A DNA stretch of 56,547 bases from a virus. Made by a program: the position numbers and the translations under genes. Below the pieces are notes generated by a model. It saw nothing but the letters and a program-made list of their open reading frames with translations. It was not told where the DNA came from and ran no database searches. Location: positions 1-56,547 of the IMG/VR virus record IMGVR_UViG_3300012926_000006, one strand, 5' to 3'. Every line of letters begins with the position of its first letter. The stretch's first letter is position 1. Below are positions 35,114 through 40,746 of this stretch, piece by piece.

Positions 35114-35172
35114 TTGCGAAAACTCAAAGATAATACTTGTATGTACCTATATTGAGGTATATAGTTCTACTT
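35114..35172 (+). promoter_or_regulatory. Promoter with spacer operator (copy 1)
   Basis: TTGTAT (35137-35142), 17-base spacer, TATAGT (35160-35165). The spacer and -10 contain TACC-N8-GGTA (35144-35147 and 35156-35159), matching the copy at 35885. Just upstream is TTGCGAAAACTCAAAGATA (35114-35132), also shared with that copy. A dimeric regulator is likely. Confidence 0.65.
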
Positions 35173-35859: not shown

Positions 35860-35909
35860 TGCGATTTCTCAAAGATATCCTTGCATATACCATTTTTCAG
35901 GTATATACT
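35860..35909 (+). promoter_or_regulatory. Promoter with spacer operator (copy 2)
   Basis: TTGCAT (35881-35886), 17-base spacer, TATACT (35904-35909). A perfect palindrome, ATATACC-N8-GGTATAT (35885-35891 and 35900-35906), fills the spacer. TTGCGATTTCTCAAAGATA (35860-35878) lies upstream as in copy 1. Confidence 0.75.
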
Positions 35910-35940
35910 CTGTTTCATCAACTCACAAAGGGGAAACAAA

Positions 35941-36141
35941 ATGAACGCCACTCAAACCGCAATCAAAGCATCAGCCCTAGCAAAACTAGAAGTGCTTAGC
36001 GATGACCAACTGAAAAAAGTCGTTGCTACCTTGACAGAAGATTTCCGCGATGGTGCAGACATTGCCCTTGCTTTCGCTTTGGAAGCCTTGCAAGACCGGA
36101 TGCAGCAAGCCGCGTTCGTTGAATTCTGTAACGGCATCTGA
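35941..36141 (+). CDS. Small helical protein (66 aa)
   Basis: MNATQTAIKASALAKLEVLS then DDQLKKVVATLTEDFRDGAD and LQDRMQQAAFVEFCNGI. All helical. AAAGGGGAAAC precedes ATG. First gene behind the palindromic promoter; no family recognised. Confidence 0.6.
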   Translation: MNATQTAIKASALAKLEVLSDDQLKKVVATLTEDFRDGADIALAFALEALQDRMQQAAFVEFCNGI

Positions 36142-36152
36142 GGGGAACCGCC

Positions 36153-36347
36153 ATGAAAATCACAATGTTCCTGCAATACTGGCTCCAAACCTTGATGGCG
36201 CTGCTGTGCGTACCTGTAATGCGCCTGACCGGTTTCCGTTTCAGCAAAGCTTGGCGCGGTAACTGGGTCGTCAACCATGTAGCCGCTAACCTGTGGGCTG
36301 ATGGCTACCAAGTCGGTTTTTGCCGGTTCTTTAACCGTTATATCTAA
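36153..36347 (+). CDS. Small hydrophobic protein (64 aa)
   Basis: MKITMFLQYWLQTLMALLCV, one membrane-compatible helix, then RFSKAWRGNWVVNHVAANLW and a basic aromatic tail. GAGGGGAA precedes ATG. Its stop codon abuts the ribozyme. Confidence 0.6.
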   Translation: MKITMFLQYWLQTLMALLCVPVMRLTGFRFSKAWRGNWVVNHVAANLWADGYQVGFCRFFNRYI

Positions 36348-36401
36348 TCCTGCTGACGAGTCGCGCTGATTACGCGACGAAACCGCTTAGGCGGTCCAGG
36401 A
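36348..36401 (+). ncRNA. Hammerhead self-cleaving ribozyme, type I
   Basis: All core elements are present in order. Stem I strand TCCTG (36348-36352); CTGACGA core (36353-36359); stem II GTCGCG (36360-36365), loop CTGATTA, CGCGAC (36373-36378); GAAA core (36379-36382); stem III CCGC-TTAG-GCGG (36383-36394); cleavage triplet GTC (36394-36396); stem I strand CAGGA (36397-36401). The stems are perfect and stem I is open, so it is type I. Cleavage is expected between 36396 and 36397, between two genes of one transcript. The 7-base loop II could make the tertiary contact with the stem I flank. Confidence 0.92.
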
Positions 36402-36448
36402 AATCAATCCTGCCCCGTTCCAGCGGGGTTTCACACAAAGGGGGTTTT

Positions 36449-36634
36449 ATGTCTAAACAAGAAGACCCGGCATTGTTTTTTGGCGTCTTGCCGAAAAAGG
36501 ATGTCGTGTTAGAAGCGCTGCTTGAATCTGAAAAGTTGTTAGATTCGGTCGCATTTGTCAACCAAGAAGGCGATACCGTTAAGCCTTTACGCCTGATTCG
36601 TCGGGCGATTATTAAGGTAAACACTGGTAAATGA
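36449..36634 (+). CDS. Small protein downstream of ribozyme (61 aa)
   Basis: MSKQEDPALFFGVLPKKDVV, LEALLESEKLLDSVAFVNQE, then KPLRLIRRAIIKVNTGK. AAAGGGGG precedes ATG. Between the cleavage site and ATG a hairpin CCCCG-TTCCAG-CGGGG (36413-36428) would sit near the new 5' end of the cleaved mRNA. Function unknown. Confidence 0.6.
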   Translation: MSKQEDPALFFGVLPKKDVVLEALLESEKLLDSVAFVNQEGDTVKPLRLIRRAIIKVNTGK

Positions 36635-36640
36635 TGGCTA

Positions 36641-36702
36641 TTGCACAATGTTGACAGTCATCATACAATCTAACGGGGTCAGGCTTTCCAGTTCCTGACC
36701 CC
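36641..36702 (+). promoter_or_regulatory. Promoter and leader hairpin
   Basis: TTGCAC (36641-36646), 17-base spacer, TACAAT (36664-36669). The predicted transcript begins with a 9-bp perfect hairpin, GGGGTCAGG (36675-36683) with CCTGACCCC (36694-36702), which may protect the 5' end or bind a regulator. Confidence 0.65.
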
Positions 36703-36732: not shown

Positions 36733-36933
36733 ATGGCTAACGCGAATTCTACAGCAAAACCGGGTAAATCGAAAACGGCTCAGGCTATCGATTACCTGAA
36801 GCAAAACCCGGAAAGCAGCGTTTATGCTGCTGCTAAATTGTTTGACATCCCGCCCGGTGGAGTCTACCGCCGTCTGAAACAGGAAAAGACCCGCTGCCCT
36901 TGTTGCGGCCAGATCGTGAAAGCGGAAAAATGA
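36733..36933 (+). CDS. Small helix-turn-helix plus zinc-knuckle protein (66 aa)
   Basis: KTAQAIDYLKQNPESSVYAA, AKLFDIPPGGVYRRLKQEKT gives a helix-turn-helix; CPCCGQIVKAEK gives a CxxC pair at the end. Probably a DNA-binding regulator. AGAAGGGGT precedes ATG. Confidence 0.65.
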   Translation: MANANSTAKPGKSKTAQAIDYLKQNPESSVYAAAKLFDIPPGGVYRRLKQEKTRCPCCGQIVKAEK

Positions 36934-38353: not shown

Positions 38354-38803
38354 CTACCCCTGCTTAAATTTATTTTCATGGGCTTCTTGCTGGACTCTTT
38401 GCCAGCGTCTGAAGATCATATTATGCGCTTGGGTAAGTAGTACGTAATACCTTGAGCGATGCACACCTAACAGCCTTGCGATTTCGTAACCGTTGCGTTT
38501 CTTTTCCTCAATCCTGCCGTTGATTTGTGCCCGGCCAAGATGGTACATAACAAACGCTTGCCTATGCTTAATCGGTAATGCTGTCACTAAACGCTCAAAC
38601 TCTACGGCTTCCAAAGGCTTAATCGGGATAGGTCGGTATAGAGTGGCTTCCAGATCACCGCGTTTCGGAATATAAAGAAAACCTAGTGGACATTTAAAGG
38701 ACGGGGGAAGATAGTCCTTGCTCCTGCCCCAGCGCAACCAATTGCTAATGTCACTTGCAAGGATGTGTTCTACCTGTCGAATACCTAGATTTTCTGATTC
38801 CAT
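38354..38803 (-). CDS. Sigma-region-4-like late regulator (antiterminator candidate)
   Basis: A 149-aa protein. The C-terminal half reads LPIKHRQAFVMYHLGRAQIN, then NGYEIARLLGVHRSRYYVLL and TQAHNMIFRRW, a helix-turn-helix like sigma70 region 4 as found in phage late regulators (Q- or RinA-like). The N-terminus (ASDISNWLRWGRSKD) matches phage antitermination-type starts. It is the last sizeable gene of the lytic early operon, as Q is in lambda, and the late unit has many internal terminators to overcome. DNA target unknown. Confidence 0.6.
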   Translation of the reverse strand: MESENLGIRQVEHILASDISNWLRWGRSKDYLPPSFKCPLGFLYIPKRGDLEATLYRPIPIKPLEAVEFERLVTALPIKHRQAFVMYHLGRAQINGRIEEKKRNGYEIARLLGVHRSRYYVLLTQAHNMIFRRWQRVQQEAHENKFKQG

Positions 38804-39296: not shown

Positions 39297-40697
39297 TTAG
39301 TTTTCGTATTCTTCCATCGCTTTTGCAATGACCTTTTGCATCGATGCTTCCAGGTCGGATGCAACTGGAGGTTTCGCCGCGCTGCGTTCCTTCAACAGTT
39401 TCAGTTGCGCCGCCATCGATGCCGCCGACGCTACCAACGCCTGTTCGGACAAATGGGTTACCGGAATGCCTGGGGCTTGTAGCGACAACTGCGCCAGCTT
39501 GGCCCGCTTCACGACTTCAGAAATAACTGCCGGGATTTCTCCTGCCAATTCCTGACCGGCCTTGCTCAGATCGGTATCAGCTTCGATTGCGGAACCACCA
39601 TACAGACGCAACAGACGTTCTACCGCTTTAGCATCAGGCGGCAAGACTTCAATCACCGCATCCAGACGGCCAGGGCGCAACATTGCCGGATTGATGGCGT
39701 TCAAGTCGTTTGTGGTCAGAACGACGATAACATTGGTCGATTTGGTGTCAATCCCGTCAATGACATTCAAAATGTCGTCCATTTCAACAGAACGTTCGCC
39801 AGACAGAGCGCGGTCGATATCTTCGCAGAACACCACACAGGCCGGACTTTGATTCTGTTTGGCGAAGCCGATAGCGTAGCTGAGTTCGTCAGCCCGTGGG
39901 ATATACAGGTAAGTAATGCCGTGGTCTACCGCAATCTTACTGGCGACGGTCGCGGCCAAGGTCTTGCCAGTGCCATAAGTGCCACCCAGCAGCACGCCAC
40001 GTTTCACAGGAATGCGATTTGCGATGCAATCAATAACGCGTTTAATCGGGGTAAACAGGTTGATATTGATTTGCGTCTGTACCGATTCAGGATAGATAAC
40101 CATTTCTTCACTGATTGTGCTGGTATCCATGAACTTAGGTTCAGGCATGTCCAGCCGGTTGCCGTCATCGTCCAGGAAACGCATCTTGATTGCCTTGCCG
40201 CGATAGATAGAATTTTCTTTCAGATAGGCGCGTACTTCGTCAAAGATTTTTTTGATTGTCGCTTCGTCCTTGCGTTTCACTCCTGCTGACAATTTGAAGA
40301 CCAGACGGCCCTCTTTTTCGTCAACACTAGTGGACATCAGGCCATCTACGCCGGGCAGAGAAAAAGAACCCCACGGTACTTGCTTTGTTTTGTTGTAGTC
40401 GATATCGATGGTAACCAGCTTAGGCGGACGTGGACCGAAAAAAGTCGGTGTTGCGGTCGCGGCGGTCCAGCCGAATTTATTGGTTAGTACAGAGTCAATT
40501 GCGTTAGCGCCATCCCAAGGGAATACGTCAAACGTTTCTTGCATTGTGACCTGTTCTTCAAGAAATTCTTCCCGGCGTGTCAAAAGGTCTTTGGCGTCTT
40601 TAATGCTCATGCCTTCAGGCAAGATCATTTTTTCGCCGTGATATACGATTTCCGCAACGTGTGCTTTTTTGCCAGCCTCTTGCAAAGTCTTACTCAT
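39297..40697 (-). CDS. AAA+ ATPase
   Basis: A 466-aa protein. The N-terminal 210 residues carry no known catalytic motif. The AAA+ core has Walker A GGTYGTGKT (238-246), Walker B ACVVFCEDID (286-295), sensor 1 (NVIVVLTTND) and the second-region arginine (PAMLRPGRLDAVIEV), a set closest to FtsH/Cdc48-type ATPases but without a protease domain. A remodelling role in replication or host takeover is likely. GAGGAC precedes ATG 40697. It neighbours a VRR-NUC nuclease. Confidence 0.8.
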   Translation of the reverse strand: MSKTLQEAGKKAHVAEIVYHGEKMILPEGMSIKDAKDLLTRREEFLEEQVTMQETFDVFPWDGANAIDSVLTNKFGWTAATATPTFFGPRPPKLVTIDIDYNKTKQVPWGSFSLPGVDGLMSTSVDEKEGRLVFKLSAGVKRKDEATIKKIFDEVRAYLKENSIYRGKAIKMRFLDDDGNRLDMPEPKFMDTSTISEEMVIYPESVQTQININLFTPIKRVIDCIANRIPVKRGVLLGGTYGTGKTLAATVASKIAVDHGITYLYIPRADELSYAIGFAKQNQSPACVVFCEDIDRALSGERSVEMDDILNVIDGIDTKSTNVIVVLTTNDLNAINPAMLRPGRLDAVIEVLPPDAKAVERLLRLYGGSAIEADTDLSKAGQELAGEIPAVISEVVKRAKLAQLSLQAPGIPVTHLSEQALVASAASMAAQLKLLKERSAAKPPVASDLEASMQKVIAKAMEEYEN

Positions 40698-40746
40698 GAT
40701 TTGTCCTCTTATTAAATTAACCGCCAGCATTATTACTGGACGGGTG

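Follow-up and report, generated by a model that had tools for sequence, protein, structure and literature searches.

Architecture of the ribozyme and predicted cleavage site

Between two small genes of a phage operon lies a stretch carrying the conserved letters of a hammerhead ribozyme, which raises the questions of whether it is a ribozyme in more than its letters, and what its cleavage would do to the transcript. The locus was analysed within an IMG/VR virus record of 56.5 kb, referred to here as the window; all elements of the ribozyme are on the plus strand.

Positions 36348-36401 form a complete type I hammerhead, for which self-cleavage is predicted. Its stem I (5 bp) is formed by TCCTG at 36348-36352 and CAGGA at 36397-36401. 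Between these strands are the conserved core box CTGACGA (36353-36359); stem II of 6 bp (GTCGCG 36360-36365 with CGCGAC 36373-36378), closed by the 7-nt loop CTGATTA; the core box GAAA (36379-36382); stem III of 5 bp (ACCGC 36382-36386 with GCGGT 36391-36395), closed by the loop TTAG; and the cleavage triplet GTC (36394-36396), which places the predicted cut at 36396/36397. Stems II and III are loop-closed, stem I is open and the three stems join at the core, as in type I topology. All 16 of the 16 pairs in the 5, 6 and 5 bp stems are Watson-Crick, and the A15.1-U16.1 pair of the hammerhead core is provided by A36382-T36395. ViennaRNA folded 36345-36405 into exactly this hammerhead (-21.6 kcal/mol, z -2.6). 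The initial annotation had proposed a type I hammerhead whose core is complete and whose three stems are perfect, and the core letters, the pairing and the fold agree with it; the cleavage site that it gave matches the position of the GTC triplet.

Statistical support and the Rfam threshold

Taken by themselves, the core letters carry no significance, because the core-only pattern occurs three times in the window against about 0.75 expected; it was rejected as evidence for a ribozyme. When stems of 4 bp or more were required in addition to the core, no match arose in 300 dinucleotide shuffles of the window (56.5 kb, both strands). An independent covariance model, built from 45 phage hammerheads with the window left out, matched 36348-36401 with 46.5 bits (E 6.2e-13), and this was its sole match within the window. 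Neither Rfam nor the phage covariance model found a second hammerhead or another ribozyme in the 56.5 kb.

The initial annotation had expected confirmation from the Rfam hammerhead models. RF00163 (Hammerhead_1) was indeed the best family for the site, with a full-length match over model positions 1-45 and an identical core and topology, but its score of 26.9 bits is under the curated gathering cut-off of 34 (E-value 0.021 for the whole window and 1.9e-4 for 501 bp), and a scan of the window at gathering level gave no match. The site differs from RF00163 in its longer stem II (6 bp, with a 7-nt loop) and in a potential pseudoknot-type contact, in both of which it is like other phage members. 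When 27 stem-verified phage type I hammerheads from 14 loci (L018, L026, L047, L053, L054, L079, L084, L244, L275, L081, L082, L083, L069 and L019) were scored, none reached the gathering score with any hammerhead family. As 27 out of 27 verified examples fail it, the RF00163 cut-off is uninformative for phage hammerheads. Standard annotation therefore likely overlooks most phage type I hammerheads, the cut-off having missed every one in the tested sample.

Gene cassette and phage surroundings

The source is a temperate phage, with an integrase, RecT/RecE-like and replication proteins, an ATPase annotated as FtsH-like, a portal-like protein and a terminase. No tRNA genes were found in the window. 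The 477-aa ATPase (39297-40730, minus strand; phrog_10440) is 84% identical in the nearest relative and more than 60% identical in Pseudomonas and Erwinia phages, and its relatives in Pseudomonas, Erwinia and Klebsiella phages are annotated as FtsH-like. On the same strand, a 149-aa protein (38357-38803; 68% in the nearest relative) has a weak match to sigma-70 region 4 (Pfam E 0.0025) and is a possible phage transcription regulator.

The ribozyme is part of a cassette of small genes on the plus strand, which follows a putative sigma-70-like promoter read from the sequence at 35881-35909 (TTGCAT-17-TATACT); the -35 element agrees with the consensus at just 3 of 6 positions, and a consensus promoter scan omitted the site. 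Within this promoter is the palindrome ATACC-N8-GGTAT (35887-35904). TACC-N8-GGTA occurs exactly twice in the window, at 35144-35159 and 35888-35903, each time inside a promoter-like spacer, which makes a shared phage repressor plausible, with TACC-N8-GGTA as its possible operator. Judged from the promoter and the palindrome, "early" is a reasonable inference for this operon.

The first cassette gene is a 66-aa ORF (35941-36141) with no PHROG or Pfam match. It is followed by the 64-aa ORF (36153-36347), which ends directly against stem I with the stop codon TAA (36345-36347), and, after the ribozyme, by the 61-aa ORF (36449-36634), which starts with ATG at 36449. The ribozyme is thus on the coding strand between these two ORFs, where the initial annotation had put it; this sense-strand placement between adjacent phage ORFs is that of the hammerheads of Perreault et al. 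2011. The 64-aa stop is 5 nt before the core and the 61-aa ATG is 52 nt after the cut. In the intervening leader are a GC hairpin, CCCCGU-UCCA-GCGGGG at 36413-36428, also listed initially and borne out by its CCCCGU/GCGGGG pairing, and the Shine-Dalgarno leader CACAAAGGGGG (36434-36444), which resembles the leader of the first 66-aa ORF (35924-35933). Neither the 64-aa nor the 61-aa protein matched a known family in PHROG or Pfam, and the search for relatives of the 61-aa protein returned none. Downstream is a second 66-aa ORF, with CxxC motifs (36733-36933). Between it and the 61-aa ORF, a 9-bp hairpin GGGGTCAGG/CCTGACCCC with no T run was observed at 36675-36702.

Comparison with related contigs

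The nearest contig, L131, shares 76% identity in the terminase and 84% in the ATPase. It has the terminator and promoter in the same order as the window, but its promoter is immediately followed by the homologue of 36733-36933, and the whole cassette (66-aa ORF, 64-aa ORF, ribozyme and 61-aa ORF) is missing. The cassette was either gained in the window phage or lost in L131. Homologues of the 64-aa protein were found in 9 viral contigs (58-68% identity), and none of the 9 has a hammerhead beside it; the ribozyme therefore does not travel with the 64-aa gene. Whole records of the nearest relatives yielded no hammerheads, and phage records yielded no nucleotide relatives of the operon. As the nearest relatives do not share the ribozyme, purifying selection on the window copy cannot be shown. 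Two distant terminase relatives, L184 (6002-6053) and L188 (2181-2232), carry hammerheads that are near-identical to one another.

Placement among phage and bacterial hammerheads

Pattern scans, two in IMG/VR and one in GTDB genomes, gave at least 378 different type I hammerheads with verified stems, in addition to that of the window. In 183 of the 285 viral-contig hammerheads listed, a frame of 60 codons or more lies upstream and ends no more than 60 nt from the core, and in these 183 the median distance from stop codon to core was 5 nt, the same as in the window. On the downstream side, an ATG ORF with a Shine-Dalgarno sequence followed within 200 nt of the cut in 184 of 283 listed viral-contig hammerheads, against 9 of 265 in an antisense control; the median distance from cut to SD-preceded ATG among those listed was 33-35 nt (52 nt in the window). 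The 5-nt and 52-nt spacings of the window fit the listed hammerheads, so its intergenic placement is typical rather than unusual.

Potential pseudoknot between loop II and the stem I flank

A feature absent from the initial annotation is a possible 5-bp pseudoknot on the plus strand, in which UGAUU (36367-36371, within loop II CUGAUUA) would form five Watson-Crick pairs with AAUCA (36402-36406) just 3' of stem I. This potential pairing corresponds to the known high-speed tertiary contact of hammerheads. Perreault et al. 2011 (PMC3088659) described pseudoknots between stems I and II in phage hammerheads, and showed a drastically lower rate when one was disrupted.

Complementarity of this kind was assessed in 69 listed phage hammerheads with a stem II of at least 5 bp and a loop of 6-10 nt. 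The 3' flank offered at least 5 bp in 11 of the 69, against 1.0 ± 0.9 when flanks were swapped; no excess was observed for the 5' flank in the listed hammerheads with these same stem and loop sizes. In L121, L244 and L275, GGAU and AUCC are found at the equivalent places, so that the letters differ and the pairing is kept.

A predicted hairpin at the 5' end of the cleavage product

The 3' cleavage product would begin CAGGAAAUCAAUCCUG. UCCUG at 36408-36412 is a downstream repeat of the 5' strand of stem I, and can pair with the CAGGA freed by the cut. The resulting 5'-terminal hairpin, CAGGA-AAUCAA-UCCUG (36397-36412, plus strand), in which the 3' strand of stem I is re-paired and AAUCA makes up most of the loop, would have zero unpaired 5' bases and abut the GC hairpin at 36413-36428. 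It too had escaped the initial annotation.

Such hairpins were counted when Watson-Crick paired over at least 4 bp, with a loop of 3-10 nt, and starting at base +1 or +2 of the product. This was a second, refined test; the first set was exploratory, and the second set and the bacterial-genome set served as replication. Observed numbers in the three listed sets were 38, 31 and 25, against 13-15, 15-16 and 6-7 after shuffling or tail swapping. By start position, 375 listed hammerheads showed an excess at +1 (60 vs 23.0) and +2 (48 vs 14.4), and a weak one at +3; other starts gave isolated weaker excursions only, of which that at +10 was the largest (25 vs 11.4), and upstream positions showed nothing comparable. 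After dereplication, in which hammerheads with related flanks were removed and one was kept per locus, hairpins were present in 45 of 186 listed hammerheads, with 13.7 ± 3.3 expected and a maximum of 24 in 1000 swaps.

The hairpin signal overlapped with pseudoknot partner sequences in 23 of 94 listed cases. When listed hammerheads with any loop II complement were removed, 25 remained against 10.2, 17 against 12.0 (weak, in the second set) and 14 against 5.3; the idea that the signal is merely the pseudoknot partner was therefore rejected. A looser test, allowing G-U pairs and partners up to 60 nt away, found no enrichment of long-range pairing by the product 5' end among the listed hammerheads (4.85 vs 4.96), which argues that the enrichment is confined to compact hairpins at the terminus. 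These counts suggest that the 3' products of bacterial and viral type I hammerheads start with an exact-end hairpin far more often than by chance, while a perfect 5' hairpin is missing in about three quarters of the listed phage hammerheads. No description of this pattern was found in open-licence papers.

Proposed mechanism and alternatives

We think it probable that this natural hammerhead acts in cis and severs the operon mRNA between its 64-aa and 61-aa genes, giving the two separate stabilities and expression. Stem I and the pseudoknot would form as the RNA emerges, with co-transcriptional cutting at 36396/36397. The upstream mRNA would then end in the stem II and III hairpins with a 2',3'-cyclic phosphate, and the downstream mRNA would begin with a 5'-OH, its freed CAGGA re-pairing with UCCUG 36408-36412. 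This strand exchange would produce a hairpin without a free 5' base, stacked against the GC hairpin, and would prevent religation. Stem-loops at the 5' end give resistance to 5'-end-dependent decay (RNase E). A terminal hairpin with no unpaired 5' base should therefore make the cut hard to reverse and slow such decay, from which separate stabilities and expression of the two genes would follow.

In ViennaRNA calculations without the pseudoknot, the hammerhead plus GC hairpin (-31.0 kcal/mol) and the exchanged form (-32.2 kcal/mol) are nearly equal in energy, so cleavage could tip the balance to the exchanged form. Stem I was lost in the predictions once about 20 nt beyond the cut were transcribed, in a model that ignores hammerhead tertiary energy; slow cleavage might thus leave the RNA uncut, and timing matters. 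A wider reading, which we consider quite possible yet would not call probable, is that phage and bacterial type I hammerheads are common makers of 5' ends, in which ribozyme and exchange hairpin may be one selected device that makes the cut lasting and shields the mRNA of the downstream cistron; the window would be an example of it.

The evidence for the cut and its placement fits equally well with an active hammerhead of negative effect, where uncoupling of the genes by the cut, with decay of one part, tunes expression down and the 5' hairpin is not protective; a 5'-OH leader with structure upstream of the SD could moreover lower translation. A position-specific 5'-terminal hairpin would be unexpected if the downstream RNA were meant to decay, however, as would stable hairpins at the product ends, and we regard this as unlikely. 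The loss of stem I in folds of longer RNAs, a state that shuffles of the window reach in only 3.5% (L=35) but in 14.5% (L=60) of cases, could instead point to a bistable switch, with the UCCUG copy and a strand of the GC hairpin (CAGCGGGG pairing with AAUCCUGCUG) sequestering stem I and the core, and cutting being conditional, for example on a ribosome at the abutting stop. Here the tertiary energy of hammerheads is missing from the folding model, the ribozyme is transcribed ahead of the competitor strand, and the probability of stem I was similar in native and shuffled sequences of 295 listed hammerheads, which argues against a general tendency; we find such a switch distinctly unlikely at this locus. 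General inactivation of hammerheads by downstream sequence was likewise rejected, with no clear difference from shuffles in these 295.

It is improbable, in our view, that the ribozyme is a passenger without a role for the phage, belonging to a small-gene cassette acquired recently or to a mobile RNA element. The cassette is absent from L131, whose promoter directly drives the homologue of 36733-36933, and an 8-nt direct repeat, AATCCTGC, flanks the ribozyme at 36346-36353 and 36406-36413, as a passenger would predict; but relatives of the 64-aa gene are without ribozyme, and the corresponding repeat stops at the paired bases in most listed hairpin-bearing hammerheads, unlike a target-site duplication. 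Target-site duplication was accordingly rejected as a general explanation for the repeat among these. That the site is a chance sequence or an inactive relic, as its sub-threshold Rfam score might suggest, is very improbable given the 0 matches in 300 shuffles, the E-value of 6e-13 with the phage model, and a potential pseudoknot and core bases that are intact; all 27 of the other phage hammerheads scored likewise fell below that Rfam cut-off. The favoured reading remains cleavage in cis that separates the two genes.

Relation to known hammerheads

The initial annotation had taken hammerhead processing of such operons to be undescribed. This did not hold, as Perreault et al. 2011 (PMC3088659), in passages on this point, already suggested that long phage transcripts are divided into single-gene mRNAs by hammerheads, and showed that native polycistronic fragments of prophages are cleaved in vitro, and one in E. 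coli. Prokaryotic hammerheads flank small non-conserved ORFs in phages, and their biological role was called an open question in the same review (De la Pena 2017, PMC6155905); a 2023 paper recalls their enrichment near Mu-like phage genes. Phage hammerheads are common and usually unannotated, and the processing idea is already known; the comparative 5'-hairpin pattern is the part for which open-licence papers gave no description.

The hammerheads in those passages of Perreault et al. 2011, such as the triple arrangement at A. tumefaciens ardA and the intergenic one of PaP3, are like that of the window in core and phage intergenic site, have the pseudoknot between stems I and II for which the window shows the sequence potential, and were likewise put forward as processing polycistronic RNA of phages. 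More than one hammerhead around genes or gene blocks was not found here, the window having a single copy in 56.5 kb; the same source reports multiple flanking hammerheads "on many occasions", so this arrangement is not strictly defining. The window also differs in the two-hairpin leader of its 3' product, which repeats the 5' strand of stem I and whose 5'-terminal hairpin is unmentioned in these passages. It is a clean single-copy example combining a potential tertiary contact with a potential post-cleavage hairpin, and hairpins exactly at the cut, a stop codon abutting stem I and a nearby SD offer a concrete, testable hypothesis for the role of hammerheads.

The IMG/VR hammerheads L244, L275 and L121 share with the window a 5-bp stem I, a 6-bp stem II with 7-nt loop, and a potential pseudoknot between loop II and an AUC-containing flank, and differ from it in the letters of stem I and pseudoknot. 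L244 and L275 also resemble it in having a 5-bp, 6-nt-loop 5' hairpin, TACGG-AATCCA-CCGTA.

Other contigs carry more than one copy. L037, L054 and L079 have five to seven type I hammerheads per contig stretch, mostly just before a Shine-Dalgarno sequence and ATG, and at about 4219 in L094 two cores are in tandem, the second starting inside the 3' product leader of the first.
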